A stretch of 25,059 bases of DNA from a virus. Numbering within the stretch: position 1 is the stretch's first letter; every line of letters starts with the position of its first letter. Shown piece after piece: positions 327-24,488 of the stretch. Both the position numbers and the translations under genes were made by a program. The stretch is taken from the IMG/VR virus record IMGVR_UViG_3300042691_015741, positions 1 through 25,059 of that record. The stretch is one strand, 5' to 3'. Under the pieces are notes generated by a model, which did not search any database, had not been told where the DNA came from, and saw only the letters and a list, made by a program, of their open reading frames with translations.

Positions 327-406
327 GCGGGCCTCCGCAAATACCAGACGAGCAGCACGCAGGTGAGCAGCACCATCAGGGTGATGCTGACAACAAACCC
401 CACCAT
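323..406 (-). CDS. 27-residue single-pass membrane peptide
   Basis: A very small gene reading MVGFVVSITLMVLLTCVLLV and then WYLRRPA. Residues 3-21 form one hydrophobic helix followed by a positive RR cluster, which suggests an N-out, C-in single-pass membrane peptide. Its ATG overlaps the TGA of the upstream gene by one base (TGATG), continuing a chain of overlapping stop/start codons back to the HNH endonuclease gene, so translational coupling is likely. Its stop overlaps the end of the convergent gene at the window start. Function unknown. The coupled start and the clean hydrophobic helix are the only evidence that it is real. Confidence 0.5.
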   Translation of the reverse strand: MVGFVVSITLMVLLTCVLLVWYLRRPA

Positions 407-1695: not shown

Positions 1696-1725
1696 TTGTA
1701 AGATGCGCTTTATCACGACAGTGTA

Positions 1726-2997: not shown

Positions 2998-3035
2998 GGC
3001 CCGCTGAGCAATAGCAATTAGCGCTTCACGAACTG

Positions 3036-3944
3036 TCATGCAGCGCTCTTGTATGCCTGGCGGCGGAGCTTGTTCAGCGAACGCTGCTCAGAGGATTGAA
3101 TGGCCTGCCTGGTGCAGCCCAGCTGACGGCTGGCTTCGACCTGCGAACACGGCGTCTTGCCTTTAAGCCCAAAGCGCATCGACAGCACATCGGCCTGTTG
3201 CTCTGTCAGTTGTGACATCCACAGGCTCAGGCGTTCAATGCCGTCGGCCACCTCCATAACGGCCATGGGGCCGTCTTCAGTGCCCGCCAGCATCTCCAGC
3301 CGTGTTGACGAGTCATCGTTCGAGGTGCAGCGCTGATCAAGGCTCGTTGGGGCCTCGACATGGTTGAGGTAATGCCGCATCACATGGGGTGTGATGCCAC
3401 AGAACTCGGCGCATTCCTCTGGTGTGGGGCTCCGCCCGTTGTCCTTGACGAACACAGGCACCCAGCCGCGAAGCTTGTTCAGGCAGTCAATGGCGTTGAC
3501 TGGCAGGCGGATGCTGCGGTCCTGTTGGCTGATGGCGCGGCTGATCCCCTGGCGGATCCACCAATAGGCATAGGTGGAGAACTTATAACCGCGGGTGGGA
3601 TCGAATTTCTCGATCGCCCGCGACAAACCAAAGCTGCCCTCCTGGATCAGATCGCTCATCTCCAGGTTGCGCACTGCGCAGAGGTAGCGCTTGGCGACAT
3701 TGACAACCAGCCGCAGGTTGGCGTTGAACATGCGCTCGTAAGCGCGGCGGCCACGGCGAATGGCGCGGCGCTGTTCAGGCGTTGGCGCTTCAACGCCCCT
3801 AACAACGATCCAGTCCTGGACGGCGCGACCGAGAAGAAGCTCCTCTTCATGGGTCAGCAGGGGGACACGGCCCGCTTGGTCCAGGAACCAGGAGATCGCA
3901 TCCCGATCACGGGAGGTGCTGCGTGAATAGTCGCGCCGTGCCAT
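3036..3944 (-). CDS. Group 2 RNA polymerase sigma-70 factor
   Basis: A 302-residue complete primary-like sigma factor. Region 1.2 is at about 15-45 (ISWFLDQAGRVPLLTHEEE). Region 2 is at 73-148, with LIQEG for core binding and FSTYAYWWIRQGI for -10 recognition and melting. Region 3 is at about 150-215 and region 4 at about 235-300. The region 2 sequence is close to cyanobacterial SigA/B/D-type proteins, so it should recognise TANNNT-type -10 boxes. The region 4 helix-turn-helix (CTRQAIQSSEQRSLNKLRR) departs from the usual VSRERVRQIE, suggesting altered -35 or activator contacts. It is the last gene of the leftward early operon, overlapping its upstream neighbour as TGATG. It probably redirects host polymerase to phage promoters. 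Acquisition from a host group 2 sigma is inferred. Confidence 0.93.
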   Translation of the reverse strand: MARRDYSRSTSRDRDAISWFLDQAGRVPLLTHEEELLLGRAVQDWIVVRGVEAPTPEQRRAIRRGRRAYERMFNANLRLVVNVAKRYLCAVRNLEMSDLIQEGSFGLSRAIEKFDPTRGYKFSTYAYWWIRQGISRAISQQDRSIRLPVNAIDCLNKLRGWVPVFVKDNGRSPTPEECAEFCGITPHVMRHYLNHVEAPTSLDQRCTSNDDSSTRLEMLAGTEDGPMAVMEVADGIERLSLWMSQLTEQQADVLSMRFGLKGKTPCSQVEASRQLGCTRQAIQSSEQRSLNKLRRQAYKSAA

Positions 3945-4234
3945 CAGAACAAGTCCTCAGGCTTGATCGGTGCCGGATCAGAGGTGACGCCCAGCAGGTA
4001 ATCGTTGCCGGCCTTGCTGGTGCGTGGCAGCAGCTTTTGGCTAACGGTGACGCAGGCTTCGCCCTTCTGATTGGTGGTGATCAGAGCAGCCTCACTGTTT
4101 GCCCAGGCGTAAAGGGCATTGATCTGCTCAATAGGCCATTCAGACTTGGCCCAGAACTCATCGGTCTTGCCTTCGATCTTGCTGCGGTTGAAGGTCGAGA
4201 ACAGGGTGAAGGCGTTGGCGGGAAAGTCACTCAT
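3944..4234 (-). CDS. Hypothetical protein (96 aa), early operon
   Basis: A 96-residue soluble protein beginning MSDFPANAFTLFSTFNRSK. A helical, tryptophan-containing middle (FWAKSEWPIEQINALYAWA) precedes a beta-rich segment (AALITTNQKGEACVTVSQKLLP) and an acidic tail ending in IKPEDLF. I do not recognise the family. An acidic C-terminus ending in phenylalanine resembles single-stranded-DNA-binding proteins, but no OB-fold can be confirmed, so this is only a thought. It overlaps the upstream gene by 8 bp and the downstream sigma gene by 1 bp. Confidence 0.65.
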   Translation of the reverse strand: MSDFPANAFTLFSTFNRSKIEGKTDEFWAKSEWPIEQINALYAWANSEAALITTNQKGEACVTVSQKLLPRTSKAGNDYLLGVTSDPAPIKPEDLF

Positions 4235-4433
4235 GAGAAAGATGGAAGTAATCGGTGAGGATCAAACGGAGTGCGCTGTTGACGCTGAGGTCGCGTTCCT
4301 TGCAGAACTGCATCAGCGCTGAATAGGTCTCGGGCGTGAGCTTGGCGGAGATGCGGAAGCGGTTTTTCACCTCCTCTCGCGCTTGCCGAGCCCACTCGTC
4401 ACGCATGTACTGGTGAAAAGCCGCCTCGTTCAT
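4227..4433 (-). CDS. Small ribbon-helix-helix-like protein
   Basis: A 68-residue basic protein. The segment FRISAKLTPETYSALMQFC followed by RDLSVNSALRLILTDYF fits the beta-strand, helix, turn, helix layout of CopG/Arc-type DNA-binding proteins, preceded by a charged helical N-terminus (MRDEWARQAREEVKNR). It overlaps the upstream gene by ATGA and the downstream gene by 8 bp. It may regulate the operon or bind DNA in recombination or replication. The fold call is from pattern only. Confidence 0.6.
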   Translation of the reverse strand: MNEAAFHQYMRDEWARQAREEVKNRFRISAKLTPETYSALMQFCKERDLSVNSALRLILTDYFHLSHE

Positions 4434-4615
4434 AGGAACAGTGGCATCTGGATGTGATCGACAACGAGGTCGGGGTACAGGTGAAGGATCATCCGCGCCC
4501 GCTGCGATGCCACTTCAACAGATGAGAAGCGCAGCGCCAGGTTGGGATCCAACGTGAAGGGGCTGGTGGTGTCCCCAATCAGGCTGTGATCAGCCAGCCA
4601 GCTCTGGGTGCTCAT
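4430..4615 (-). CDS. Hypothetical protein (61 aa), early operon
   Basis: A 61-residue protein starting MSTQSWLADHSLIGD. The ATG at 4615 was preferred because longer in-frame versions add a serine/threonine/proline-rich stretch that is plainly the shadow of the upstream gene. It still overlaps that gene by 26 bp. The C-terminal half (RFSSVEVASQRARMILHLYP) is helical, and the protein ends IQMPLFL. No family recognised. Confidence 0.5.
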   Translation of the reverse strand: MSTQSWLADHSLIGDTTSPFTLDPNLALRFSSVEVASQRARMILHLYPDLVVDHIQMPLFL

Positions 4616-4811
4616 TGATTTGAGCAGGAAACGAGTCCTCGCGGGGAAGGCTCTGGAGGAGCTGGAGGCAGTTGCGGACGGTGGCTTCGTGTTGGGTGTA
4701 GTCGCCATAGGAGACAAACCGTGAGCGGAAGAACTGTTTGTTGGCTTGGCGATGGAGGTCATCGCGGAGGTCATGAAGTGCGGCTAGAGCGAGGTCGAGG
4801 TAGGGGCTCAC
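4590..4811 (-). CDS. Hypothetical protein (73 aa), early operon
   Basis: A 73-residue mostly helical protein (LDLALAALHDLRDDLHRQ, then ATVRNCLQLLQSLP) with no transmembrane segment. It starts with GTG at 4811, two bases past the stop of the ERF gene, so it is probably translated by re-initiation. No family recognised. Its position directly after the annealing protein suggests a recombination or replication accessory. Confidence 0.55.
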   Translation of the reverse strand: MSPYLDLALAALHDLRDDLHRQANKQFFRSRFVSYGDYTQHEATVRNCLQLLQSLPREDSFPAQINEHPELAG

Positions 4812-4813
4812 GA

Positions 4814-5521
4814 TCAGGAGGGAGGGAGCGCTGCAAGGAACTGTTGGATGAAGTCGCCGTGTTGCTTCTCTTGAAGGTGGTCGCTGATGCGGGCACGTTC
4901 AGGGAGATTGAATTTGCCGCGGTACTCGGCAACCAGCTGGTCAAACGCAGGTCGGTTGTCGGTCATGAGTTGCTTCATGACAGCCAAAAGCTCTTCACGT
5001 TCATCCTTGGCGAGCGGCGGCTCCACCTGTTCGGTGCTGGGTGACGCCTCAGCTTTAGCGGGCTTAGCTGCCGGTTGCGCAGGGGTAGCAGAAGTTTTAA
5101 CAGGAGCTTTCGTCTGCGGCTTGGTCTGCTGCAGCGGCGGCCGCTGATCGGCGCCATCACCGTCGTCGTCTTCCATGCCGGCGGCCAAGTTGAGGATCGC
5201 CAGCAGGGCAAATCGGCGCTGATAGGTCACAGCCCCGCCCCAGTCGTGCAAAGCGTTGCGGCCCTTGACCTCAATCAAAGGCACATCGCTGTCCACGGTT
5301 TCACCGCTGCCGTGGCGGAGAGTGGTGCGAAGGATGATGGCGCCTTCGGTTGGGATGAAGGTCTGCGTGACGGCGAGGCCGGCTTCGCTCAGTGGGGTGG
5401 CAATAGCGCTGAGCACATCAGCAAGGGAAGCAAAGGAGCCGTATTGGGCTTTGCTGTTTTTGTGGATGGTGCCGACGGCCTTGTGAAAGCTGGCCAGGGC
5501 GGTGGTGAGTGATTCAGTCAT
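4814..5521 (-). CDS. erf: ERF-family single-strand annealing protein
   Basis: A 235-residue recombinase of the ERF superfamily, which anneals complementary single strands and promotes phage recombination or circularisation. The N-terminal domain (1-125) shows the family layout: FHKAVGTIHKNSKAQYGSFA, LADVLSAIATPLSEAGLAV, then the GGAVTYQRRFALLAILNLAAG signature and the acidic EDDDGDGAD turn. A proline/alanine/lysine-rich linker (about 127-170) leads to a helical C-terminal domain. It overlaps its upstream neighbour by 8 bp and is the second gene of the leftward operon driven from about 5.78 kb. A partner nuclease is not adjacent; the PD-(D/E)XK nuclease at 10.3 kb on the other arm is a possible partner. 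Confidence 0.93.
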   Translation of the reverse strand: MTESLTTALASFHKAVGTIHKNSKAQYGSFASLADVLSAIATPLSEAGLAVTQTFIPTEGAIILRTTLRHGSGETVDSDVPLIEVKGRNALHDWGGAVTYQRRFALLAILNLAAGMEDDDGDGADQRPPLQQTKPQTKAPVKTSATPAQPAAKPAKAEASPSTEQVEPPLAKDEREELLAVMKQLMTDNRPAFDQLVAEYRGKFNLPERARISDHLQEKQHGDFIQQFLAALPPS

Positions 5522-5744
5522 TGATGCTGGGCAAACGTAGGGCCTTGCGAGCTGCGATCACGGCTAGGTGCCAGTCCTGAATGGCTACGCGCTGATCAGG
5601 GCTGAACGACTCCCAGTCGATCGTGTCAACGATGGAGACGATGACGGCGTATGCCTCGTCGAGGGCGTCGTCAACGGCTTCGATGGATTCGGCGCAGCGG
5701 TTGAAATAGTCCGCTGCTTCAGGGGGTGTGACTCGTTGAGGCAT
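5514..5744 (-). CDS. First gene of the leftward early operon, unknown (76 aa)
   Basis: A 76-residue acidic helical protein (AADYFNRCAESIEAVDDALDE, then AVAIQDWHLAVIAARKALRLP in essence, residues 52-72). The ATG at 5744 lies about 17 bp past the expected transcription start of the strong leftward promoter, and its end overlaps the ERF gene by 8 bp. The first codons carry CGAGTCACACC on the coding strand, the core of the leader motif found before other early genes here, which could mean this start evolved from such a leader. Function unknown. Confidence 0.6.
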   Translation of the reverse strand: MPQRVTPPEAADYFNRCAESIEAVDDALDEAYAVIVSIVDTIDWESFSPDQRVAIQDWHLAVIAARKALRLPSIND

Positions 5745-5767
5745 CGCTGCTGCGGATGTGCAGCACG

Positions 5768-5796
5768 ACCATACGCGGCCAGGGTGGTTGGGTCAA
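5768..5796 (-). promoter_or_regulatory. Leftward early promoter
   Basis: On the minus strand: TTGACC, a 17-bp spacer, then TATGGT. Spacing is ideal for sigma-70, and the -10 fits TANNNT. Transcription would begin near 5761, just before the ATG at 5744. The -35 box lies within a candidate operator, so repressor binding would block it. Confidence 0.7.
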
Positions 5797-5804
5797 CCCC
5801 TACG
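5786..5804 (-). promoter_or_regulatory. Candidate operator site 1
   Basis: The minus strand reads CGTAGGG, GTTGA, CCCAACC: one full half-site of the motif that is perfectly palindromic at 10972-10990, with the same 5-bp spacing. It overlaps the -35 of the leftward promoter and the last codons of the regulator gene. Confidence 0.55.
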
Positions 5805-6494
5805 CATTGCGATCGGGGAAAGCGTTGCAGTGCCGCCGCCCCAGGCATTCAGTGCCTGCGCAGGGCGGCCCAATTCCCCGGGCACCGAAAGCGCTGTCGC
5901 TTCGTCACCTGACCAGTCGGACCAGCCGGCCAGCACCTCGCGGAAGCGGTCTAGCTCCGTGGCGGTGAGCATCGAACAGAACGGCTTGAGCCCCTCCCAG
6001 GCTTCCTTGGGGTTCAGCATCTGGTCGGTGGCAATGCGGCGGAAAGCCTCGCGGCACATTTCGCTGAGTCCCTTGGCGTCGTCATCGGTCAACACCGGCT
6101 CGGGCTCGGGCGCCAAGTATTCGTCCGCGAACGGTGCTTCACCAATAAATAAGGAGAAGAAGTCGCTGGCAGTGGCCGGCCGGCCGTCGGCGGTTATGAA
6201 AGGGTCAGCCTCCTTGAGGCGATCGCGCAGCCCGCGGGCGGTGACAGCGGGGAAGTCTTGTGCGGCGACGGAGGCGTTAAGCCGGCCAAGGGCTACCCAG
6301 AACTGGGGCTTGCAATCGAGCTTGCCTCTGGCCAGGAGCGATGCCTGGCTGTTCCACACCCCGCCGACGTTGCCAATGGCCAAGGAGAAGTCGTGAAAGG
6401 TTTGCTGCGACCAGCCGTTGCGCTTCATCCATATGGCGAAAGCCTTGCCGAAGGCGTCACGGTTTAGCTGCTGCTCGGCAGGGATGTCGGCCAT
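5793..6494 (-). CDS. Putative phage transcriptional regulator (repressor-like)
   Basis: A 233-residue soluble protein. Its N-terminus (residues about 10-75: AFGKAFAIWMKRNGWSQQTF, then FSLAIGNVGGVWNSQASLLARGKL) has the spacing of an XRE-like helix-turn-helix, with SQQTF as helix 2 and the VWNSQASLLARG segment as the recognition area. The remainder is helical with an acidic centre, and no peptidase or dimerisation domain is recognised. It lies leftward between candidate operators at 5786, 6522 and 6624, at the divergence between the two early arms, which is where a CI-like repressor would be expected. Its leader carries CTGAGTCACCCC. The repressor call rests mainly on location and the operator pattern. 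Confidence 0.55.
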   Translation of the reverse strand: MADIPAEQQLNRDAFGKAFAIWMKRNGWSQQTFHDFSLAIGNVGGVWNSQASLLARGKLDCKPQFWVALGRLNASVAAQDFPAVTARGLRDRLKEADPFITADGRPATASDFFSLFIGEAPFADEYLAPEPEPVLTDDDAKGLSEMCREAFRRIATDQMLNPKEAWEGLKPFCSMLTATELDRFREVLAGWSDWSGDEATALSVPGELGRPAQALNAWGGGTATLSPIAMRRG

Positions 6495-6670: not shown

Positions 6671-6683
6671 CCCCGAGTCACCC
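6671..6683 (+). promoter_or_regulatory. GAGTCAC leader motif before the metallopeptidase
   Basis: CCCCGAGTCACCC, followed 7 bp later by CACACC directly before the ATG at 6697. It looks like a leader copy split by a short insertion. Confidence 0.45.
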
Positions 6684-6696
6684 GATTCCTCACACC

Positions 6697-7203
6697 ATGA
6701 AAAAGCTCTTCGCCGCAGCCTTCGCTGCACTTGCCATCGCTACCCCTGCGCAGGCCAGCACCGCTGACGTTCGTCAGCTCATGGACCTGATCAAGCAGAC
6801 GGGCACCACCATCAGCTTCAACACCAACCGTCAAGACTCCCACTGCATCAACAACGCTGGTTACTACTACCTAGATCACGACAGCAACCAAAAGGTCAAA
6901 ACTGACCTGCTCGTGATCTGCCGCGATCAGGTTGATCTCAACAACGCCGACAAGGTATGGGAAGCGCTGTCTCACGAAGCCACTCACATCATGCAGGCAT
7001 GTACGGGTGACACGGCGTTTACCGAGGAAGACCATCCCACCATGTTCCGCGAGCTGAACCGTAAGGCGCCTCACTACTCCAAGTTGGTGGATAACTACCA
7101 CGGACGCGACGCTCGCTACGAAGCCGAAGCGTTCTGGATGGAACTACAGCCCGAAGAAGACGTGATCGGGTACTTCAAGGACATCTGCTTCAAGAAGGAC
7201 TGA
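6697..7203 (+). CDS. Secreted HEXXH zinc metallopeptidase
   Basis: A 168-residue protein with a clear signal peptide: MKK, a hydrophobic core AAAFAALAIA, and an AQA cleavage site after residue 20. The mature protein carries HEATH (93-97), the zinc-binding HEXXH motif with Glu94 as catalytic base. ARYEAEAFWMEL (139-150) supplies a plausible glutamate third ligand, as in gluzincin-type enzymes. Several cysteines (50, 75, 102, 164) could form disulfides outside the cytoplasm. I chose ATG 6697 because it starts the signal peptide and follows CACACC; an ATG 17 codons upstream would bury it. As first gene of the rightward arm it is probably expressed early or in the lysogen. Its target is unknown; envelope proteins or peptidoglycan-linked proteins are guesses. 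Confidence 0.8.
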   Translation: MKKLFAAAFAALAIATPAQASTADVRQLMDLIKQTGTTISFNTNRQDSHCINNAGYYYLDHDSNQKVKTDLLVICRDQVDLNNADKVWEALSHEATHIMQACTGDTAFTEEDHPTMFRELNRKAPHYSKLVDNYHGRDARYEAEAFWMELQPEEDVIGYFKDICFKKD

Positions 7204-7222
7204 CCACCTCTCACCTGTTCAC

Positions 7223-7238
7223 CTACCGAGTCACACCA
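7223..7238 (+). promoter_or_regulatory. GAGTCAC leader motif before the 45-aa membrane protein
   Basis: CCTACCGAGTCACACCA directly abuts the ATG at 7239. There is no purine-rich Shine-Dalgarno sequence. Near-identical leaders occur at 7390 and 8851. Confidence 0.55.
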
Positions 7239-7376
7239 ATGAAAGAAACCAACAAGGCTGCCGTAGCCGCTGTCTTCTGCCTCTTCCTACTTGGGGCGCT
7301 TGGTTACACCGTTCGCTGCCACCCAAGCCTTGCTGCCTATTCCCATCTCGCACCGCACCAAGGCCGCTGCCGCTGA
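7239..7376 (+). CDS. 45-residue membrane or secreted peptide
   Basis: A small gene encoding MKETNKAAVAAVFCLFLLGA and continuing to a histidine- and cysteine-containing tail ending QGRCR. Residues 7-24 form a hydrophobic helix after a short charged N-terminus, so it is either a single-pass membrane peptide or a signal-anchored one. It is supported as real by the leader motif directly before its ATG, the same as before the genes at 7409 and 8870. It sits between a secreted peptidase and a methyltransferase. Function unknown. Confidence 0.6.
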   Translation: MKETNKAAVAAVFCLFLLGALGYTVRCHPSLAAYSHLAPHQGRCR

Positions 7377-7389
7377 TCTGTCGACTCAT

Positions 7390-7408
7390 CCACCCACCGA
7401 GTCACCCC
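7390..7408 (+). promoter_or_regulatory. GAGTCAC leader motif before the methyltransferase
   Basis: CCACCCACCGAGTCACCCC directly abuts the ATG at 7409. It differs from the copy at 8851 at two positions. Confidence 0.55.
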
Positions 7409-8134
7409 ATGAAAAGCTTCTCTAACTTCACAAACCAGTCCTGCTTTGACCTGCTTGCCACTGTTCCCACAGGCACCGTTGATCTCGTTCTGATTGACCC
7501 GCCCTACCTCATCAGCCGTGATAGCGGCTTCGAGTCCGGCAACAATCCTGATTACGACCGCCTCAAGATCAGCATTGATTTTGGCAAATGGGACCATCGT
7601 CTAGACGGATTCGACCAGGCCATTCACGAGTGCTACCGCGTCCTCAAGCAAGGTGGCACCTTCATCTGCTTCTACGACCTCTGGAAGATAACGGAGCTAG
7701 CTCAGACGATGGAGGCAGCCAAGTTCAAACAGCTGCGTTTCCTTGAGTGGGTCAAGACCAACCCCGTCCCCATCAATCAGTCGGTCAACTACCTGACCAA
7801 CGCCCGCGAGATCGCTGTCCTTGGTGTCAAAGGTGGCAAGCCCACCTTCCATAGCAAGTACGACAACGGGATCTATGAGTACCCAATCGAGCACAGCAAG
7901 GGTCGCTTCCATCCAACGCAGAAAAGCCTGAAGCTGATCAAGGAGTTAATTGAAAAGCACAGCAACCCAGGCGACGTCGTTCTTGACTGCTTCGCCGGCA
8001 GCTGCACAACAGGTGTTGCGGCACTGGAACTTGGCCGCGAGTTTGTCGGCTGCGAGCTGGACCCGGATTACTTCAAGCAGGCCAGCAAGCGCTTGCATCT
8101 AACCGCTACCGCTGCGCAGGGACAGCTGATCTGA
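7409..8134 (+). CDS. Beta-class DNA N6-adenine/N4-cytosine methyltransferase
   Basis: A 241-residue S-adenosylmethionine-dependent DNA amino-methyltransferase. The catalytic motif DPPY is at residues 30-33, preceded by VDLVLI, and the AdoMet-binding motif (VVLDCFAGSCTTG) is near the C-terminus. Catalytic motif first and AdoMet motif last, with HPTQKS between them, is the beta-class order. FAGSCTT varies from the usual FxGSGTT at one position. Its TGA overlaps the ATG of the next gene, an HNH nuclease, by one base. The pair reads as a type II restriction-modification unit, although an orphan methyltransferase that evades host restriction is also possible. Recognition sequence unknown. Confidence 0.9.
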   Translation: MKSFSNFTNQSCFDLLATVPTGTVDLVLIDPPYLISRDSGFESGNNPDYDRLKISIDFGKWDHRLDGFDQAIHECYRVLKQGGTFICFYDLWKITELAQTMEAAKFKQLRFLEWVKTNPVPINQSVNYLTNAREIAVLGVKGGKPTFHSKYDNGIYEYPIEHSKGRFHPTQKSLKLIKELIEKHSNPGDVVLDCFAGSCTTGVAALELGREFVGCELDPDYFKQASKRLHLTATAAQGQLI

Positions 8135-8842: not shown

Positions 8843-8850
8843 CAGTTGAT

Positions 8851-8869
8851 CCACCTACCGAGTCACACC
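8851..8869 (+). promoter_or_regulatory. GAGTCAC leader motif before the membrane protein
   Basis: CCACCTACCGAGTCACACC directly abuts the ATG at 8870. It is the best-preserved copy of the leader motif. Confidence 0.55.
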
Positions 8870-9181
8870 ATGACAACCCTTCAAACCGTCAATCCTGACC
8901 ACATCACCCGTCGTCAAAAGGCAAGCCCGCTTGGCGCTGGCATCTGCGTCGGCTTGGTTGGCCTTTTTGCGGCCGTGCCGATCGGTATCCGCCAGAAAGA
9001 CTGGAAAGTGCCAGTCTTCTCCGCTGGCGCTGCCTTTGCCGCTGCCTATTTCATTGCCTTGGTTACTTACTCCGAAAGCACGCAGGAGATAAGTCGTGGG
9101 GCGGCCAAAGCGGCGGGGAATATAGCCGGCGGACTGGCTGCCTATGTTCTGGTGCGCAAGAACAAGAAGGAGAGCGAGTGA
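8870..9181 (+). CDS. Small two-helix membrane protein
   Basis: A 103-residue protein with hydrophobic helices at about residues 22-40 (AGICVGLVGLFAAVPIGI) and 49-69 (VFSAGAAFAAAYFIALVTY). A third, glycine/alanine-rich stretch (84-95) precedes a charged tail ending RKNKKESE. The start at 8870 was chosen over an ATG eight codons upstream because the leader motif abuts it. The gene is bracketed by the 16-bp direct repeat, suggesting insertion as a unit. It could be a superinfection-exclusion or lysogenic-conversion protein, but no family is recognised. Confidence 0.65.
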   Translation: MTTLQTVNPDHITRRQKASPLGAGICVGLVGLFAAVPIGIRQKDWKVPVFSAGAAFAAAYFIALVTYSESTQEISRGAAKAAGNIAGGLAAYVLVRKNKKESE

Positions 9182-15242: not shown

Positions 15243-16130
15243 CTAGAGCACTGGCATTTCGTAGTCAGCGGTGGTGGCGGCGTAGTGCTTCCAGATCACT
15301 TCACTGGTGTTGCCAGCCCAGTTAGCGGCCTGAGTGACGGGGATTCCAGCTTCTAGCCAGCGGCTGATGGCAACGTGTCGGAGGTCATAGGGGCGGTATG
15401 GCTTCTTGATCAACCCAGCGCTATGCAGCTGCTGCATACGCTTGGCGAAGAAGCTCTGGAACGCCAAGCGGTTCCAGGGGAACACGTATTCACTGTGTTG
15501 CGGCAGGCCAGCAATGATCTCCTTGGCTCGGGCGTTCAGCGGCACCCAGCGTTTTTTGTTGGTCTTGGTGCTGTTCTTAAGGCCGTGGGTCAAGGTGTAG
15601 TTGCTGTGGACAAGGACGCGCTCACCGTCGATGTCGGTCCATTTGATGGCCCGCACCTCACCAGTGCGCATAGCGGTTTGCATCATGAACTCAGCAAACA
15701 GGCACCAGTTGACGTTTTTGTAGGCGAGCTTGGCTTCGAGGGCGACGAGCACCAGGGGGATCTCTTCCCGTGGGATGACCACGACTTCGTGATCGCTTTG
15801 AGGCGCTTTGGGCATCCTGAAATTGGCCACGGGGTTGCGCGGCAGGATGGCGATGTCTTCTGCTGACGCCCAGCGGTAGAGGCTGCGGACGTACATGCAG
15901 ACGCGCCTAGCGGCCTTTTGGGGCTGTTGCTGCAGGAGCCATGCAAGGACTTGCCGCCCTTCGGAGAGCTCTTGGATCGGGCAGCGTGCCAGCCATTTGC
16001 TGACCTGTGTGTAGTCGCTTGTGAGGCTGGTGGGGCAGAGGGAAACGCTGCGTTCTGCCTTGAAGAGCTCCCAGGTTTGCAGGAGGGTCTGAGTGGGCGC
16101 AGCGGGGTGCGCACGATAGTCTTCGGCCAT
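15243..16130 (-). CDS. int: Tyrosine recombinase (phage integrase)
   Basis: A 295-residue integrase. The N-terminal core-binding domain (about 15-105) is helical. The catalytic domain has TAMRTGEVRAIKW (Arg155), a beta-hairpin lysine near STKTNKKRW (189-193), PYDLRHVA (Arg251) and the nucleophile in WKHYA (Tyr283). The usual first histidine of HxxR is Tyr248, and the later His/Trp position reads AGNTS (Asn274). Both substitutions are in line with integrases I recall from cyanobacteria. It faces left, tail-to-tail with the large terminase (13-bp gap), inside the morphogenesis genes. An attachment site is expected nearby, but none can be identified from one sequence. A second, serine-type recombinase is present at 1726-2997. 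Confidence 0.93.
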   Translation of the reverse strand: MAEDYRAHPAAPTQTLLQTWELFKAERSVSLCPTSLTSDYTQVSKWLARCPIQELSEGRQVLAWLLQQQPQKAARRVCMYVRSLYRWASAEDIAILPRNPVANFRMPKAPQSDHEVVVIPREEIPLVLVALEAKLAYKNVNWCLFAEFMMQTAMRTGEVRAIKWTDIDGERVLVHSNYTLTHGLKNSTKTNKKRWVPLNARAKEIIAGLPQHSEYVFPWNRLAFQSFFAKRMQQLHSAGLIKKPYRPYDLRHVAISRWLEAGIPVTQAANWAGNTSEVIWKHYAATTADYEMPVL

Positions 16131-16797: not shown

Positions 16798-16809
16798 GGG
16801 GAAGCTAGG
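16798..16809 (+). promoter_or_regulatory. Late-region 12-mer motif, copy A
   Basis: GGGGAAGCTAGG, 17 bp before the ATG at 16827 and 2 bp after the preceding stop. Exact copies are at 17117, 19876 and 21067. A purine-rich GAGAGG also lies nearer the start codon, so the 12-mer is not simply the ribosome site. Confidence 0.65.
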
Positions 16810-16826: not shown

Positions 16827-17108
16827 ATGCCAGTTCCTAGCCCGCGTACACCGATCTGCGTGGCACGCGGCAGGATTGCTGATCTGCAGGCGAACGTTGG
16901 CAGCCTGTTAGAGGGGGAGATCTGTTATGCGCAGGATGAAGATGCGCTGTATGTGAAAGAGGGAGCTGTATTAGTGAGATCGACTGGTCGCCCTGTCACT
17001 TGGCAAGGAATCACGGGTCGGCCTGCTGGTGTGCAGCTGCTTGATCTGCTGCAGTGGAATGGCACCGACTGGGTGGCTGATCGACGTTTGGACGGGGGCA
17101 ATTTCTAG
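16827..17108 (+). CDS. Small virion/fibre-type protein (93 aa)
   Basis: A 93-residue protein that looks like the end domains of the next, larger protein joined without a shaft. Residues 13-50 (GRIADLQANVGSLLEGEICY, AQDEDALYVKEG) resemble the virion-anchoring N-terminal domain of phage fibre and tropism-determinant proteins. The end (LLQWNGTDWVADRRLDGGNF) matches the W(N/D)GTDWV and GTF ending of the 400-residue fibre protein. It is probably a minor fibre, collar or decoration protein. Late motif copies lie before and after it. Confidence 0.6.
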   Translation: MPVPSPRTPICVARGRIADLQANVGSLLEGEICYAQDEDALYVKEGAVLVRSTGRPVTWQGITGRPAGVQLLDLLQWNGTDWVADRRLDGGNF

Positions 17109-17116: not shown

Positions 17117-17128
17117 GGGGAAGCTAGG
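17117..17128 (+). promoter_or_regulatory. Late-region 12-mer motif, copy B
   Basis: GGGGAAGCTAGG within GGCAGGGGAAGCTAGGTCA, 20 bp before the fibre-protein ATG. The flanks CAG and TCAGCA are shared with copy D, so similarity extends beyond the 12-mer. Confidence 0.7.
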
Positions 17129-17148: not shown

Positions 17149-18351
17149 ATGCCCGCCACCATCAGGATCAAGCGTCGTGCTGCTGGTGGGGCTGTAGGTG
17201 CGCCAGCCACTCTGGCCGCGGCGGAACTTGCGTTTAACGAACAGGACAACACGCTCTATTACGGCAAGGGCGACAACGGTTCTGGTGTAGCAACCAGCGT
17301 TATTGCGATCGGTGGTTCGGGTACGTTCCCTAGCACTGGCACGGGCAACACCTGGTCGGGGGCAAATAATTTCACGGGCGGCGTCACCCTTGGCGGTACG
17401 ACTGCTGTTACTGGCACCATCAATTTCAACGGTGCAACGATTCAGAACTTCAGGCTCGATGACCTGAGCGATGTAAATATCGGCAAGACCATTGCGCTGG
17501 CCAATGGTCACATGATCGCTTGGGACGGCACCGATTGGGTGAACGTTCCTGCCCCAAGTGGTGGTGGTGGTGGCACGATCACCAGCGTCAGCGCCACGGC
17601 GAACAGCGGCGTCAGCGCCACAACGACCACAGGCGCTGTCGTCATTGCTGGAGTAGATGCCACCACTACTGCCAAGGGCGTAGTGCAACTGGCCGATGCC
17701 GCTGCGATCACGGCTGGCACCGCGTCGCGCGTGGTGGATGCAGCGCAGCTGCTGGCGGCCAAATACACCCTGCCGACCGCTAGCGCCACGGTGCTTGGCG
17801 GCATCAAAGTTGGCACCAACCTGGCGATTGACGGCACTGGCGTGCTGAGCGCCACCGTTCCTGGTGCATTGACCTTTAAGGGCGCCGTTGCTCCAACGAG
17901 CACTGCGCCAGCAACGCCTGCTCCTGTGAAGGGTGACGTTTATGCCATGAACGCCACTGGGACGCTGGACGCCAGCTGGGGCCTGGGCGCTAAGGCGGTG
18001 GATTCTGGCGACCTCGTGATGTACACGGGCACCGCCTGGGATCACGTTGGCAACAACCACGCCACGGTGGTGGACATCACCGTTACAGCGCCGCTGACGG
18101 CTGACAAGACCAACCCTGCGCAGCCTGCACTGAATATCAACGCAGCCACTGCAACAGCAGTTGGCGTGGTGCAGCTGGCCGATGCCACGGCCATCACGGG
18201 CGGCACTGCAGGGCGGGTTGTGGATGCTGCGCAGTTGAAAGCTGTGGCGGACAAGCTGCCTGCTGGCACCGTTGCCGATCAAATGTTGAAGTGGGACGCC
18301 ACCAATACAAAGTGGGTAGTGACAGGCACTATTGACTGCGGAACCTTCTGA
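17149..18351 (+). CDS. Tail fibre / receptor-binding-type structural protein
   Basis: A 400-residue glycine/alanine/threonine-rich protein. The N-terminus (IRIKRRAAGGAVGAPATLAA, AELAFNEQDNTLYYGKGD) is a virion-attachment domain of the phage fibre/tropism-determinant type. The shaft has short beta-repeats and a poly-glycine hinge (138-142). The segment AKGVVQLADAAAITAGTASR (175-194) recurs as AVGVVQLADATAITGGTAGR (337-356), each followed by VVDAAQL. The C-terminus (LKWDATNTKWVVTGTIDCGTF in substance) resembles that of the preceding small protein. It probably trimerises and contacts the host. The late motif lies 20 bp upstream, and its TGA overlaps the next ATG. Confidence 0.8.
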   Translation: MPATIRIKRRAAGGAVGAPATLAAAELAFNEQDNTLYYGKGDNGSGVATSVIAIGGSGTFPSTGTGNTWSGANNFTGGVTLGGTTAVTGTINFNGATIQNFRLDDLSDVNIGKTIALANGHMIAWDGTDWVNVPAPSGGGGGTITSVSATANSGVSATTTTGAVVIAGVDATTTAKGVVQLADAAAITAGTASRVVDAAQLLAAKYTLPTASATVLGGIKVGTNLAIDGTGVLSATVPGALTFKGAVAPTSTAPATPAPVKGDVYAMNATGTLDASWGLGAKAVDSGDLVMYTGTAWDHVGNNHATVVDITVTAPLTADKTNPAQPALNINAATATAVGVVQLADATAITGGTAGRVVDAAQLKAVADKLPAGTVADQMLKWDATNTKWVVTGTIDCGTF

Positions 18352-18936: not shown

Positions 18937-19886
18937 TGACTGACCTTGAATCGTTTTTGGCGCAGGCGATCAGACAGCGGAAGCTGGAGCAGAAGCTGAC
19001 GAAGTACGCGCTAACGCGGTTGCGGGAAGCATTGGGCTGGGTGCGGGGTCAGATCGAGTTTCATGGCCTGACGCAAATTGGCCCGAACCGAACGGAGCGC
19101 TTGAAAGTGCTGCGCATGGAGGTCGAGACCTACATGAAGGAGCAATACGCCACCCCACTGATGCAGACGATGCAGGTCAGTGAGGTGATGAATGACTTCA
19201 TTGATCAGCAGTTGAGTTTGGCGAGGCAGGTAGTGGTTGCCACTGGTGGCTCTGCCAGTGGTGCGTTGACGGCGAGCGCGGTGCTGCCGCAGGCCATGGG
19301 GCAGGTGATGGTGAACGGTGTGCCGTGGGGTGAGCTGCTGGTGGATCGGCTGCCAGCGTCAGTGGCGGACAAGGTGAGCAGGATGCTGGGGTTGTTCCCT
19401 GACGATGTGGGCAAGGTGTTTGCCGATGCGATCGTCAGACCGACCGAGCGTCACGTCGAGGCGATCATCACCAGCGGTGTGCAGGACACGGGCAGCATTG
19501 CCCAACAGCTGTTGTGGCAGATCGAGACCAGCGACGCCTGGAAAACGGATAACCAGCAGGTGTGGTCAGCGATGTTGGATAGCAGGGTCTGCGCGACCTG
19601 TATGGGCAGGGACGGCAAGCGGTATCCGATGGATTACGTGAAGGTGAGCCCGCACCCGAACTGCCGTTGTGTGCTGCTGCCCGAGAGCTTCTTTACTCAA
19701 GATCGTCCTGTCGAGGGCGATGGCGGAAAAGTGGTGGACATCGACACGACGCAACGAGCTACGGAGAAGTGGTTGCGAGATAACCCCCAGACGGCACGGA
19801 AAGTGCTTGGCGTCAAAGTCGGCAATCAGTTCGTTGAAGGCAAGATCAGCCTTGATGTAGCGGTGAAAAAAGCAGGGGGAAGCTAG
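18936..19886 (+). CDS. MuF/SPP1 gp7-like minor head protein
   Basis: A 316-residue protein, helical for about 200 residues, with the phage Mu gpF-like C-terminal domain at 205-250: VWSAMLDSRVCATCMGRDGK, RYPMDYV, then PHPNCRCVLLP. The CxxC pair (219, 222) with HPNCRC (240-245) is the family's likely zinc-binding signature. Such proteins bind the portal and enter the prohead, sometimes being ejected with DNA. It ends GGS, with its stop codon inside the late motif. The portal gene is normally adjacent but here lies 2 kb downstream. Confidence 0.85.
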   Translation: MTDLESFLAQAIRQRKLEQKLTKYALTRLREALGWVRGQIEFHGLTQIGPNRTERLKVLRMEVETYMKEQYATPLMQTMQVSEVMNDFIDQQLSLARQVVVATGGSASGALTASAVLPQAMGQVMVNGVPWGELLVDRLPASVADKVSRMLGLFPDDVGKVFADAIVRPTERHVEAIITSGVQDTGSIAQQLLWQIETSDAWKTDNQQVWSAMLDSRVCATCMGRDGKRYPMDYVKVSPHPNCRCVLLPESFFTQDRPVEGDGGKVVDIDTTQRATEKWLRDNPQTARKVLGVKVGNQFVEGKISLDVAVKKAGGS

Positions 19887-19887
19887 G
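19876..19887 (+). promoter_or_regulatory. Late-region 12-mer motif, copy C
   Basis: GGGGAAGCTAGG containing the TAG stop of the MuF-like gene and lying 11 bp before the connector ATG. AAAGGG nearer the ATG is the likely ribosome site. Confidence 0.7.
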
Positions 19888-19898: not shown

Positions 19899-20483
19899 AT
19901 GTCGCTGGCGAGTCTTGGCGGTTCGACCGTCGCCAACAGCTATCTGACAGTTGCAGAAGCTGATGGCATCGCCGCAACGATGCTCGGGACGTTGAAGTGG
20001 AACGACGCTGCAACGACGACGTTGCAGAAGGAAAGCGCACTAATTCAGGCGACTCTGCAAATGGAGACGCTGGGCTGGGTGGGGACCAGGGCCGTGGCAA
20101 CGCAGCCGCTGTCATGGCCGCGAAAGGATGCGAAGTGCGGCGAGAAGTCATACGACGCAACGACAGTGCCGCGTGAGGTGGAGCTGGCAACGTTTGACAT
20201 GGCCGAAGCGTTGCTGGGCAATCCTGGTCTGATCACAGGATTAGGGTCTGGCACTAGTGGTTCTGGTGGCAGTGGTGAACTGGTGCCTGGGGTGCCGAAT
20301 AAGGACCTGAAGCGCCTGAAGCTGGACGTGATGGAGCTCGAATGGCGTGATGGGGCCACGGGTTCGGCGACAGTCAAAACACCCCTATCGGTGTTGCCTC
20401 ATTTGGCGGGGATTCTTGGCTGTCTGACCACCAGCGTGCGGCCGAGTGGTGCCAGCTGGATGGTGCCTGTGATCCGCGGGTAA
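19899..20483 (+). CDS. Head-tail connector (DnaT-like/gp6-like adaptor)
   Basis: A 194-residue protein with the start pattern of phage head-tail adaptors often labelled DnaT-like: NSYLTVAEADGIAATMLGTL, W, then KESALIQATLQMETLGWVGT and PLSWPRKDA. These proteins form the ring beneath the portal that joins head to tail. A glycine/serine loop (121-132) precedes the C-terminal strand region. Late motif copy C lies just upstream, and the TAA stop is within CGGGTAACAGGG, a weak relative of the motif. Confidence 0.8.
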   Translation: MSLASLGGSTVANSYLTVAEADGIAATMLGTLKWNDAATTTLQKESALIQATLQMETLGWVGTRAVATQPLSWPRKDAKCGEKSYDATTVPREVELATFDMAEALLGNPGLITGLGSGTSGSGGSGELVPGVPNKDLKRLKLDVMELEWRDGATGSATVKTPLSVLPHLAGILGCLTTSVRPSGASWMVPVIRG

Positions 20484-20504
20484 CAGGGTGCCTACCCTGT
20501 CCCT

Positions 20505-21077
20505 ATGGCAACGTATGAGCAAGGTGATTTAGGGCTTGGCAATACGCCGCGGCCGAAGCGGCGGAGCAACTCGCACCTTGCAGAACCGTTGACGAAGGAA
20601 GAGCGAAAGCGGTTTGGTGAGCTGTATGTGGAACACCAAGGTCTGATTCGCCTGTTGGGCTGCAAGATGTGCCGCAAGTATCAAGCGGTGGACAAGCTCG
20701 ATATTTACAGCTGCATTGATATTGGATTTTTGAAGACGTGCAGAGCGTTTGACCCGACGTTGGGGTTCAAGTTTTCAACGCTGCTAACAAGGTTCTGCGA
20801 GGGGACGATCCTGCATTTCATGCGGGATCACAACTGGCATGTGAAGGCGCCGAAGAAGGTGCGCGAGCTTGGGATGGCAGCGCGGAACCTGGCGACAGCG
20901 GGCTACAGCGTGGCTGACACCATGCGCGTGTTGGGGGTGAGCCGTGACGAGCTGCGCTTGGCGATTGCTGCCACCGCTGGCATCTATCACGAGCAAAACG
21001 AGTGGGAAGGTCACGCCTGTCAGCGGCCGACACCGATGGAGCGGCTGGAGGCTGAGGAGATGGCAGGGGGAAGCTAG
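20505..21077 (+). CDS. Region-4-less SigB/SigF-like sigma factor
   Basis: A 190-residue sigma-like protein. Residues 32-108 match sigma region 2: FGELYVEHQGLIRLLGCKM, LDIYSCIDIGFLKTCRAFDP and TLGFKFSTLLTRFCEGTILH. MRDHNWHVKAPKKVREL (106-122) matches the LRDHGWSVRVPRRLQEL type sequence of group 3 SigB/SigF factors. Region 3 (133-156, YSVADTMRVLGVSRDELRLA) follows, and then the protein ends without a region 4. It should therefore bind core polymerase and a -10-like element but not a -35. T4 gp55 is a precedent for a late sigma lacking region 4. It lies among late genes, with the late motif at both the preceding and its own 3' end. It could instead be a non-transcriptional remnant, but the frame is intact. 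Confidence 0.8.
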   Translation: MATYEQGDLGLGNTPRPKRRSNSHLAEPLTKEERKRFGELYVEHQGLIRLLGCKMCRKYQAVDKLDIYSCIDIGFLKTCRAFDPTLGFKFSTLLTRFCEGTILHFMRDHNWHVKAPKKVRELGMAARNLATAGYSVADTMRVLGVSRDELRLAIAATAGIYHEQNEWEGHACQRPTPMERLEAEEMAGGS

Positions 21078-21078
21078 G
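21067..21078 (+). promoter_or_regulatory. Late-region 12-mer motif, copy D
   Basis: GGGGAAGCTAGG containing the TAG stop of the sigma-like gene, 20 bp before the GTG of the tail tube gene. It is flanked by GCAG and TCAGCA as in copy B. Confidence 0.7.
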
Positions 21079-21098: not shown

Positions 21099-21566
21099 GT
21101 GGGATTTTTTAACGCCTTCGGGTACAAGTTCTACGTCAAGGCGGGCACGAGCGCGTCTACCGCGCCCACGGCATCTACGGGCATGGTTGAGGTGAAGAAC
21201 CTGTCGAATGCTGGCATCAGCTCCAGCACCGATACCCAAGAAGTGATCACCTACGACACCAGCACTAACGGCTGGAAGCAGCAGATCGTGACCGCCAACA
21301 GCTACACGATCAGCTGTGAGCTGAACATTGACACAGAGGATGCTGGCTACAAGCTGCTGAAGGAAGCAGCTCGGGATTCGGCGACGGGCAAGATGGTCGA
21401 GTGGATTCGTGAAACTCCGATGGCGGCTGGCGGCACATCGGCTGAGAAGCACGCAGGCGTGGCTGCTGTGGGCAACTTCAGTGAGGACATCCAGGCTGGC
21501 AACGTTGCCAAATGCACGTTCGACTTAGTGGGCTACGGCCCTTATGTTTTGACTGAGGCAGCCTGA
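21099..21566 (+). CDS. Major tail tube protein
   Basis: A 155-residue beta-rich protein starting from GTG: MGFFNAFGYKFYVKAGTSAS, MVEVKNLSNAGISSSTDTQE, then VTANSYTISCELNIDTEDAG and CTFDLVGYGPYV. Short beta-strands, an early loop asserting a difference (NAGISSSTD) and a late TFDLVGYG strand fit siphovirus tail tube proteins, which stack as hexameric rings. Late motif copy D lies upstream and a strong terminator directly follows, as expected for a highly expressed virion protein. The assignment is by pattern and context. Confidence 0.75.
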   Translation: MGFFNAFGYKFYVKAGTSASTAPTASTGMVEVKNLSNAGISSSTDTQEVITYDTSTNGWKQQIVTANSYTISCELNIDTEDAGYKLLKEAARDSATGKMVEWIRETPMAAGGTSAEKHAGVAAVGNFSEDIQAGNVAKCTFDLVGYGPYVLTEAA

Positions 21567-21726: not shown

Positions 21727-21879
21727 ATGGCGTGCTGGATTCCAGGCCCTTGGGGCAATTTCCAAGGCAGGCCAGTGCAGCCTGAATCGCCACATCAGGC
21801 AGCGATTGCTGAGCCAGTGAAAACTGATCTGAAGGAACCCGTGCGTGGGCGTCGGGTTCAATCTGGTCGGGAATCCTAG
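21727..21879 (+). CDS. Possible 50-residue proline-rich protein
   Basis: A short frame encoding MACWIPGPWGNFQGRPVQPE, ending SGRES. It is rich in proline, glycine and glutamine, with a WxxGPWGNxQGRP opening that looks protein-like. Its stop falls inside the diverged late motif before the portal gene, as the stops of the MuF-like and sigma-like genes do in their copies. No clear ribosome site is seen, and another frame overlaps it. The remaining 114 bp back to the terminator hold nothing I can identify. Confidence 0.4.
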   Translation: MACWIPGPWGNFQGRPVQPESPHQAAIAEPVKTDLKEPVRGRRVQSGRES

Positions 21880-21880
21880 G
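21868..21880 (+). promoter_or_regulatory. Diverged late-region motif, copy E
   Basis: CGGGAATCCTAGG resembles GGGGAAGCTAGG with one extra base and a changed centre. It lies 17 bp before the portal ATG, the same distance as copy A from its gene, directly after a terminator where a new promoter would be needed. Confidence 0.5.
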
Positions 21881-21897: not shown

Positions 21898-23397
21898 ATG
21901 ACGAACTCGTCGCCAAGCATCTATAGAGCGCAAGGTTGGACGGGTGCGCAGACGCTGCAAGGTGGTGCGCTTGAGCAACCTGACAACCCAGGAGCTCGTG
22001 ATCCACAGATTTTGGCGATGGTGCCAGCGTGGGAGCGCGTTGGGATGGCACTCGCCGACTCGACTAGTCTTCGCAACTACCGACAGCGGTTTATCCCTCA
22101 GCTGCCTGGGGAAGATGACAAAGGATACGAAGCGCGAGTAAGCAAGTTCGTTCACGTTCCTTGGTTTGAGGAATTAACAGAACTGGCGGTGCATAAGTTG
22201 TTCCGCAAGACACTGAATTTCGAGACTGAAGATCAGCAGCTGGAGGAGTGGTCAAGCGACGTTGACGGGGCTGGCACTGATCTTGAGGCGTTCTGGAAGC
22301 TGGTGACGAAGATCGCCATGCAGTATGGCCACTGCCATGTCCTCACCGACATGGCGACGGACGTGACGCCGCGGACGCTGCTGGAGGAGCAGCAGTTGCA
22401 GATCAAGCCGAACTTGTTCGTGATTCGTCCGCAGCAGGTGATCGGGTTCCGCACCAAGCGGGTGGCTGGCCGTGAGGTGGTGACGCAGTTCCGTTATATC
22501 GAGCTGGCGCAGAAGGAAGACGGCCGTTACGGCAGCGTCTGGGTGGAGCGCGTGCGAGTGCTGGAGCCCGGCCGCTTCGAGCTGTGGGAAAAGAAGGATG
22601 AAGGCCCAGAGGGCTGGGTGCTGATCGAGGATGGCCGTTACGGCCTGAAGGAGATTCCGATCTCCACGGTCTACGGCAGGCGCGAGGGCGTGATGCTGAG
22701 CAAGCCGCCGCTGCTTGAGGCCGCCAATCTGAACCTGCTTTACGACCTGGCGCTCTGCGATCACTCGCATCAGATGAGCGTCGCGGCGACCCCGATCCTT
22801 GTTCTGAAGGGTTTCGATCAGAACCAGGCCGACCTGACGGTGAGCGTGAACCGTGCGCTGGCGATGCCGCCCGAGGGCGATGTCAGCTACGTGACCACCG
22901 ACTCTGCATCTTTCCAAGCCCAGGAGAACTACCTGAAGTTCCTGGCGGATCGGATGAATCAGGTGGCGATCGTCGGGTTCAAAGAGCAGAAGAACGCAGC
23001 AGAGGCCGCGTCAGCAAAGCGGCTTGACCACTCTGACGAGGATGCTGCCCTGAGCACGGTGGCAACCAGCATCGAGGCGGCGGTGAAGCGCTCGATCGAC
23101 TGGGCACTGGAATACATGGGCCGCAACGCCACCTTCGAGGTTGGTATTCCCAGCAACCTGAGCGACGAGATGCTGACGCCTCAAGACGTGCAGCAGCTCT
23201 TAGCCCTCAACACTAGTGGTGTTATCACCAAGGAAACCTTGCTGGAAACACTGGTGCGGGGTGAGGTGTTGGATGTGGATCCACAGGAAGAGGCTGAAAT
23301 GGCCAGCCAGCAATCGCTGGACGATTTGGTGCAGAACCAAGAGGTGATGCAAGCGTTTGCACCGCCTGCTGCAAGTGCAGGGAAACCCCCTGCCTAA
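21898..23397 (+). CDS. Portal protein (DUF4055 type)
   Basis: A 499-residue protein of the portal family labelled DUF4055. A helical N-terminus (AMVPAWERVGMALADSTSLR, YRQRFIPQLPGEDDKGYEAR) is followed by WFEELTELAVHKLFRKT, a strand-rich wing domain (VIRPQQVIGFRTKRVAGREV, IPISTVYGRREG), then the stem and crown helices (ANLNLLYDLALCDHSHQMSV, ENYLKFLADRMNQVAIVGFK). A ring of twelve would form the DNA channel and docking site for terminase and connector. It lies after the tail tube gene and a terminator instead of beside terminase. A diverged late motif precedes it. Confidence 0.88.
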   Translation: MTNSSPSIYRAQGWTGAQTLQGGALEQPDNPGARDPQILAMVPAWERVGMALADSTSLRNYRQRFIPQLPGEDDKGYEARVSKFVHVPWFEELTELAVHKLFRKTLNFETEDQQLEEWSSDVDGAGTDLEAFWKLVTKIAMQYGHCHVLTDMATDVTPRTLLEEQQLQIKPNLFVIRPQQVIGFRTKRVAGREVVTQFRYIELAQKEDGRYGSVWVERVRVLEPGRFELWEKKDEGPEGWVLIEDGRYGLKEIPISTVYGRREGVMLSKPPLLEAANLNLLYDLALCDHSHQMSVAATPILVLKGFDQNQADLTVSVNRALAMPPEGDVSYVTTDSASFQAQENYLKFLADRMNQVAIVGFKEQKNAAEAASAKRLDHSDEDAALSTVATSIEAAVKRSIDWALEYMGRNATFEVGIPSNLSDEMLTPQDVQQLLALNTSGVITKETLLETLVRGEVLDVDPQEEAEMASQQSLDDLVQNQEVMQAFAPPAASAGKPPA

Positions 23398-23424: not shown

Positions 23425-23625
23425 GTGGCTGGTCTAATTGTCTCTGCGGGCATTGTTTCTGGCCAGCTGATTTTGGGTCTGGATGACGGCAGCATCGTGA
23501 ATGCTGGCGTTGTTCAAGGTCCTCAGGGTCTGCAGGGGCCTCAGGGACCGATGGGCGCGACGGGTCGCCCTGGCACTGATGGCAACACGGTGCATAGCAG
23601 CAATGGGTGCGCAGGCGTGATCTAG
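23425..23625 (+). CDS. Collagen-like small protein, probably truncated
   Basis: A 66-residue protein starting GTG: MAGLIVSAGIVSGQLILGLD, then DGSIVNAGVVQ and a collagen-like run of Gly-X-Y triplets (about 33-53) ending TDGNTVHSSNGCAGVI. The opening is typical of small collagen-like proteins in cyanophages, which as I recall continue past DGNT with a sequence containing DLG. Here the frame stops, while the overlapping frame reads RRRDLGPGQTTAGDM. This suggests a frameshift or a fusion junction near 23605. It probably decorates the virion or the fibre. TACCCCTGTGTAG lies directly before the start. Confidence 0.6.
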   Translation: MAGLIVSAGIVSGQLILGLDDGSIVNAGVVQGPQGLQGPQGPMGATGRPGTDGNTVHSSNGCAGVI

Positions 23626-24488
23626 GCCCTGGTCAGACCACGGCTGGCGACATGTTGAAGAACGCCAATGAGCACAGCAAAAAGCTGGTGCTGGGTAAGC
23701 ACACGGAGGCGTTTAACAAGCTGACGGGTAAAGGCGGGCAGTACGAAAAGGACCCGCAGGGTGCGGTACGGAAGCTGCTTGGCAATGGTTTGCCACCAGG
23801 ATCGACACCATCTAGGCCAACGCGGGGGCCTGCGCCCAAACCGCCTGCACCACCGAAGGCAGCGCCTACCCCACCGCCTGCACCGAAGCCAAAAGCGCCT
23901 GCATTAGCTCCGAAGGAGGCTCCCAAGCAACCAGTCAAACCACCAACCAAAGCGCTTAAGCAATGGACATCTGACGATGGCTATAAGCACATGAGAGCAG
24001 AGCAACTGCGTCAAGCTGAAGCCAACGGCGTCAAGCTCACGCCGTTTGAGCGTGGGCAGATTGAGCAATATCCCACGTCTGCTACACAGAAAAAGAATTT
24101 GGAAGCTCTTACTCAGTACATCAACACTGCCGAAACCTACAAAGGCAGCGTTTATCGTGGCTTGAACATGGGCAAAGAAGAGTTTGATACAATGCTGGCA
24201 AGCATTCAGTCTGGAGCGCCTACTAATGCGCTGGAAAGCTGGACGAAGAACGGAGACTTAAAGACTTTCACGATTGGCGGGAAGAATCAAGTAATCATGT
24301 CTGTTGATAACAAGCGTGGCGTAGATATCTCGTCCTTCTCTGAGTGGGGCGACACTGAACAGGAGGTGCTGCAGCCAAACGGGGTGCGGTACAAGGTGAA
24401 GAGTGTTGTGAGGGAAGAAATTGATGCTGGCTTTAGCGCTAAGGGGGTTTACCGTTACCGAGTGGACCTAGAGCAGCTAGATGACTAA
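23607..24488 (+). CDS. Probable mono-ADP-ribosyltransferase effector
   Basis: A 293-residue protein counted from GTG 23607; ATG 23652 is an alternative start. Residues 1-65 are helical and basic, 66-116 form a proline/alanine/lysine-rich linker, and 155-293 carry an ADP-ribosyltransferase signature of the R-S-ExE class: YRGLN with Arg184, ESWTKN with Ser211, and EQEVLQPNGVRYKV with Glu251 and Glu253. The glutamate pair is the catalytic ExE seen in C3/VIP2-like toxins and T4 Alt-type enzymes. It would transfer ADP-ribose from NAD to a host protein. Location after the portal suggests a virion-carried, injected protein. The frame overlaps the collagen-like gene, and DLGPGQT before the ATG may be coded. 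Confidence 0.7.
   Translation: MRRRDLGPGQTTAGDMLKNANEHSKKLVLGKHTEAFNKLTGKGGQYEKDPQGAVRKLLGNGLPPGSTPSRPTRGPAPKPPAPPKAAPTPPPAPKPKAPALAPKEAPKQPVKPPTKALKQWTSDDGYKHMRAEQLRQAEANGVKLTPFERGQIEQYPTSATQKKNLEALTQYINTAETYKGSVYRGLNMGKEEFDTMLASIQSGAPTNALESWTKNGDLKTFTIGGKNQVIMSVDNKRGVDISSFSEWGDTEQEVLQPNGVRYKVKSVVREEIDAGFSAKGVYRYRVDLEQLDD

Follow-up and report, generated by a model that had tools for sequence, protein, structure and literature searches.

What would a sigma factor without the -35-binding region 4 do among the virion genes of a siphovirus-like phage? The window, by which we mean the whole stretch of DNA analysed (25,059 bases, one IMG/VR record), encodes such a protein within its structural neighborhood, in which a MuF-like head protein, a head-tail adaptor, the short sigma, a tail tube and a portal are found (Table 1). 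The reading that we favor, with considerable confidence, is that of a late sigma resembling gp55 and derived from group 3 (SigB/F), which would read a one-piece, extended -10 promoter; descent from SigB/SigF-type stock with loss of region 4 is part of that reading.

Table 1. Positions of the sigma genes and candidate promoters discussed in the text (window coordinates unless an accession is given)
Feature	Position	Strand	Remarks
Short putative late sigma factor gene, 190 aa	20505..21077	+	regions 2 and 3, then a tail like region 3.2; region 4 lacking
TACCCT, -10-like box	20493..20498	+	T-12 A-11 C-8 T-7 counted from the sigma ATG
Candidate late promoter GGGAAGCTAGG	16799..16809	+	before ORF 16827-17108
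Candidate late promoter GGGAAGCTAGG	17118..17128	+	before ORF 17149-18351 (fibre-like)
Candidate late promoter GGGAAGCTAGG	19877..19887	+	before head-tail adaptor gene 19899-20483
Candidate late promoter GGGAAGCTAGG	21068..21078	+	before tail tube gene 21099-21566; TAG shared with the sigma stop
Candidate degenerate late promoter GGGAATCCTAGG, one base longer	21869..21880	+	before portal gene 21898-23397; weak
Full-length group-2-type sigma, 302 aa	3036..3944	-	regions 1.2-4
P-SS2 gp003, annotated SigF/RpoS-like sigma	NC_013021 2091-2732		no detectable region 4
S-CBS2 gp077, annotated SigF/RpoS-like sigma	NC_015463 56832-57452		no detectable region 4
S-CRES1 gp20, annotated SigF/RpoS-like sigma	OQ587939 12308-13042		no detectable region 4

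A short sigma factor among the structural genes

The first-pass annotation had described the protein as sigma regions 2 and 3 ending at 190 residues without region 4, and several independent searches agree with that description. Pfam recovers Sigma70_r2 at residues 40-111 (E 6.8e-5; 23.0 bits, just under the cut-off of 24), finds no Sigma70_r4 in the window's protein and gives no match for Sigma70_r3 itself; a PHROG sigma family matches at E 2.9e-14. Region 3 is recovered by profile alignment. A family profile built from 42 members matches S. aureus SigB (PDB 8x6g; E 9e-8) along residues 7-159 of its 256, which correspond to regions 2-3, and this match upholds the proposed group 3 affinity. 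The same profile aligns with region 3 of the phages' own full-length sigmas (profile-profile E 1.2e-10); in the 302-aa sigma of the window the alignment reaches residue 234, short of that protein's region 4 (residues 242-294). The best sequence matches are to sigma families other than gp55. Structure prediction, the check proposed for the region 2 fold, returned a confident AlphaFold model of region 2 on its own (pLDDT 90.7), for which the top matches in the PDB are region 2 domains of sigma factors (TM 0.73-0.80 against the SigE domain 8b3z); the whole-protein model is moderate (pLDDT 74, pTM 0.51), with low TM-scores of 0.3-0.4 against sigmas.

Orthologues were recovered from viral contigs, 19 at first and later 87, and a search of GTDB genome contigs for relatives found none. 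Across the 83 loci examined, the proteins are 171-192 aa long (one is cut to 158 aa by a contig edge) and share an end point with a similar C-terminal signature, mostly HxCxRPTPxExLE; since all 83 stop at one place, truncation artefact is excluded. Family members are 42-77% identical, 27 residues are invariant across 42 sequences, and the order adaptor, short sigma, tail tube is constant in most loci.

The window also carries a full-length sigma (Table 1), a candidate early or middle sigma of the same phage. Other features of the record deserve mention in their own right. In the segment 13907-23397 the portal follows the tail tube, and in two relatives (G006 and G010) it precedes it. A second repeated element, approximately CACCTACCGAGTCACACC, is found at 6676-6703, 7217-7244, 7388-7415 and 8849-8876; elements of this kind stand directly before the ATG of several early/middle-region genes and are distinct from the late motif described below. 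A 423-aa ORF at 1726-2997 resembles, by reading, a serine recombinase, and a tyrosine integrase is encoded at 15243-16130. The protein of 23607-24488 combines weak ADP-ribosyltransferase similarity (Pfam E 0.006) with a minor-head-protein PHROG match (E 1.3e-18) and is possibly a virion-borne enzyme. Scans of the window for tRNA genes and Rfam families found nothing.

The late motif and the promoter of the sigma gene

A short repeated element before late genes had been noted alongside the sigma, and it proves to be a promoter-like motif present in dozens of related phages. In the window it takes the form GGGGAAGCTAGG, exact at 16798, 17117, 19876 and 21067 on the plus strand. With two mismatches allowed, four matches in the window alone are unexceptional (21 of 100 shuffles), and relatives are therefore needed for statistics on the motif. 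Across these relatives the element is overwhelmingly non-random: AACCTAG ranks first in an unbiased 7-mer scan (z 8.8; 56 dereplicated loci), the sigma strand contains GGNAANCTAG 162 times, where order-1 random sequence gives 6-10, and the 11-base form reaches 116 occurrences, compared with no more than 10 for any of 60 permuted patterns. The core is GGNAANCTAGG, so that of the GGGGAA core first described the element itself stands and the leading G, which is not conserved, does not. The likeness once suggested to the GGGTAT -10 box of SigB/F is likewise partial; aligned at A-11, the GG and A positions are shared. Variants in relatives keep the pattern (GGGAACCTAGG, GGAAACCTAGG, GGCAACCTAGG, and GGCAACTTAGG in one clade). 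All 83 short-sigma loci carry at least one copy of GGNAANYTAG on the sigma strand, and thus no orthologue was met in a phage lacking the motif, an outcome on which the first-pass annotation had staked its proposal. Near-complete genomes hold 3-11 copies, in the late module or directly before it, although some are low in strict motifs (G008, with 3 sites).

Placement of the motif is similarly constrained. In 140 dereplicated sites, information is confined to positions 1-11 plus a preference for A within 14-17 (positions 14, 15 and 17), which places an A-rich, putative start-site signal 3-4 nt downstream of the motif. The 60 nt upstream are flat, with at most 0.08 bits per position except at the base adjoining the motif, and no conserved -35 element at fixed spacing is therefore present upstream of these sites. 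A start codon lies 15-50 nt downstream of 126 of the 140 (control 26%), mostly at 25-35 nt, and at 55 sites the preceding reading frame terminates on the motif's TAG, as the short sigma gene does (21075-21077). Ten records of 40-50 kb contain 92 sites; 84 fall within the late arc, and the other 8 are no more than about 300 nt from its edge, before the first late genes such as terS. Some motifs are paired divergently and would serve a connector operon of two genes that lies on the opposite strand. At 4088-4110 of L010 the divergent late promoters overlap (CCTAGTTTCCCGGCAACCTAGG) and would drive two structural operons in opposite directions, and similar overlaps occur in L011, L013, L014, L018, L038 and L077. 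The geometry of the motif looks like that of a -10-only, one-piece promoter, and the coupling to the short sigma that had been claimed for it holds in dozens of related phages, without a conserved -35 element.

Directly upstream of the short sigma gene itself there is no late motif; a TANNCT box is found instead, conserved family-wide at -12 to -7 from the ATG (54 loci). TANNNT at -12 precedes 7 of 11 sigma genes, versus 0 of 174 late genes and 4 of 446 other genes. This spacing predicts a leaderless mRNA, and suggests a sigma transcript made by a host-type, or phage group 2, sigma. A late promoter also precedes the adaptor gene upstream of the sigma, in the window and in several relatives. 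An inverted repeat at 20483-20489/20494-20500 (ACAGGGT-GCCT-ACCCTGT) lies before the sigma gene, and L011-L014 have inverted repeats (ATCAGCAGGCGCTAGCCTGCTGAT) upstream of the gene as well; the overlap of these repeats with the predicted -10 box and start of the sigma gene suggests an operator.

Co-occurrence in a sister contig and in cultured phages

The sister contig L121 (6.1 kb, positions 1-6116) preserves the order capsid, adaptor, tail tube, connectors, tape measure, and lacks both the short sigma between adaptor and tail tube and the motif. Its adaptor-tail tube gap holds a TAGAAT -10-like box instead.

Three cultured cyanosiphoviruses, P-SS2, S-CBS2 and S-CRES1, encode group 3 sigmas of 213, 206 and 244 aa in which Pfam detects no region 4, and to which the window family is homologous along regions 2-3 (profile E 7.5e-16; group 2 sigmas are more distant, at E 1.9e-8). 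These sigmas differ from the window family in having only about 27% identity, a longer C-terminus and a gene that adjoins terL, whereas that of the window family sits between adaptor and tail tube. Their promoter motif is related but looser, GGNANNCTA; the strict form GGNAANCTAG appeared unenriched in the three genomes, and the looser form at the right distance was enriched. It stands 24-42 nt upstream of 14 (P-SS2), 19 (S-CBS2) and 19 (S-CRES1) annotated genes, against a mean of about 0.5 gene starts and a maximum of 6 for 300 permuted patterns, and the genes behind it include those for tape measure, tail, head, portal, endolysin and terS. In some of the metagenomic genomes, such as G005 and G008, the looser form gains little over permuted patterns. 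By comparison, KBS-S-2A, S-H1, P-HS2 and S-2L, which have related portals and no short sigma, have 0-1 GGNANNCTA sites in promoter position. Short sigmas that are only about 27% identical are therefore accompanied by one and the same kind of promoter. That sigma and motif co-occur partly reflects shared ancestry, with L121 the one clear co-loss, and the weight of the co-occurrence is reduced by this phylogenetic dependence. Because the short sigma is inherited together with the late motif, it is very likely, on this comparative evidence, the switch that turns on the late (virion) genes. The window family is represented throughout by metagenomic contigs, and the related isolates indicate that its phages very probably infect cyanobacteria.

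Proposed mechanism, alternatives and known systems

The domain content, conservation, motif, placement, lack of a conserved -35 element and co-occurrence described above are properties of the sequences; from them we infer that the sigma recognizes the motif, where and when transcription starts, and which contacts are made. The short sigma would first be made, leaderless, from its host-type promoter (TANNCT before the ATG), would bind core RNA polymerase via region 2, and would then direct it to the one-piece late promoters GGNAANCTAGG, where a -35 contact would not be needed. The A-rich position 14-15 of the motif may be the start site; with position 15 taken as +1, the motif would be numbered G-14 G-13 N A-11 A-10 N C-8 T-7 A-6 G-5 G-4. 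At sigma-70 promoters, region 2 flips out the bases at -11 and -7. Here A-11 and T-7 would be the flipped bases, read by region 2, and the GG at -14/-13, the extended -10 position, could be read by the start of region 3. Reading through from the late promoter of the adaptor-sigma operon into the sigma gene would add positive feedback, by which the short sigma may reinforce its own synthesis.

It is possible that the short protein is half of a split sigma, contributing regions 2-3 only and obliged to work with a separate sigma-4-like or flap-binding partner. SPO1 gp33/gp34 and B. subtilis SigO/RsoA are split-sigma precedents in which the region-2-bearing chain is without region 4, as here, but no partner gene was found in the present genomes. 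T4 gp33 provides a further precedent (PMC2988020), and short HTH ORFs with weak Sigma70_r4 similarity do occur in some genomes; yet the search for a separate region-4 gene returned full-length sigmas and scattered weak HTH matches, with no small region-4-like gene recurring in all genomes. The motif also has no conserved -35 partner sequence, although gp33 needs none. A check for a gp33-like coactivator gave no candidate common to all genomes, but a sigma-4 surrogate may have been missed, as sequence conservation is poor among gp33-like proteins (PMC2988020). Taken together, an obligatory partner seems rather unlikely, if a serious contender. No match to the sliding clamp families PF00712 and PF02916 was found in the 10 phage records of 40-50 kb; the host sliding clamp may act as activator. 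The opposite arrangement can be put forward tentatively, at somewhat less than even confidence: a stand-alone minimal sigma, whose regions 2-3, unaided by a phage clamp or a sigma-4 surrogate, would be enough for cyanobacterial core polymerase to transcribe late genes strongly and promoter-specifically across a large group of cyanobacterial siphoviruses.

Other readings would detach the motif from the sigma, or the sigma from any function. Some other DNA-binding protein of the phage could recognize the motif, and the presence of a full-length sigma in most of these genomes would suit a scheme in which the motif is the site of a different activator or of a phage group-2 sigma and the short protein is an anti-sigma-like decoy or regulator. 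We consider this improbable: G002 and G003 have the motif and no full-length sigma, KBS-S-2A has an rpoD-type sigma with neither short sigma nor motif enrichment, and the motif has -10 geometry. The narrow distance to downstream start codons might instead point to a translation or RNA-processing signal, but at 25-35 nt from the start the motif is too far for a Shine-Dalgarno sequence, it forms overlapping divergent pairs on both strands, and it is specific to the late module and co-occurs with the short sigma, all of which make such a signal very improbable. Hardly credible is a decaying, functionless gene of host origin; the sub-threshold Pfam score would fit decay, but the identity range, the invariant residues, the constant synteny in most loci and the constant C-terminus argue against it.

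The favored reading, a late sigma of group 3 ancestry, invites comparison with T4, in which gp55 lacks region 4 and late promoters consist of a short -10 element without a -35, gp33 fills the flap site and activation comes from the clamp (PMC2988020). The present system is like T4's in its region-4-less sigma and in late promoters without a conserved -35 element. It differs in its promoter sequence (GGNAANCTAGG, unlike the T4 late -10 box), in the absence from the searches of a PF00712/PF02916 clamp gene and of gp33, and in a sigma that keeps the region-3 segment, shows group 3 SigB/F affinity and accompanies siphovirus-type structural genes. Because neither the T4 promoter sequence nor a clamp gene was found, the short sigma is not assigned to the gp55 family; its promoter code is independent, and its origin, from group 3, probably so as well. 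With SigB/SigF (S. aureus SigB 8x6g, B. subtilis and cyanobacterial SigF) it shares region 2, including the RDHNWxVxAPxxVRxLG-type segment, region 3, and a motif whose GG...A resembles the GGGTAT -10; it differs in lacking region 4 and a conserved -35, and in the extra CTAGG downstream half of the motif.

The P-SS2 genome paper reports two sigmas, one of group 2 and one of group 3, suggests a regulon of its own for the latter, and describes a search for sigma-70 promoters only (PMC2784084). In the openly readable literature searched, we found no prior description of the missing region 4, of a region-4-less siphovirus sigma or of the motif, nor of late regulation in these siphoviruses. Late promoters of staphylococcal phage K are likewise presented without -35 elements (PMC11598898), so that such systems may be commoner than known.

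The sigma and its promoter would together constitute a defined late-transcription switch for widespread, probably cyanobacterial, siphoviruses, and their presence in cultured S-CBS2, S-CRES1 and P-SS2 makes this directly testable. The gp55 logic of a region-4-less sigma seems here to have arisen a second time, from group 3 stock, and the short sigma offers a test of how little sigma factor is enough.
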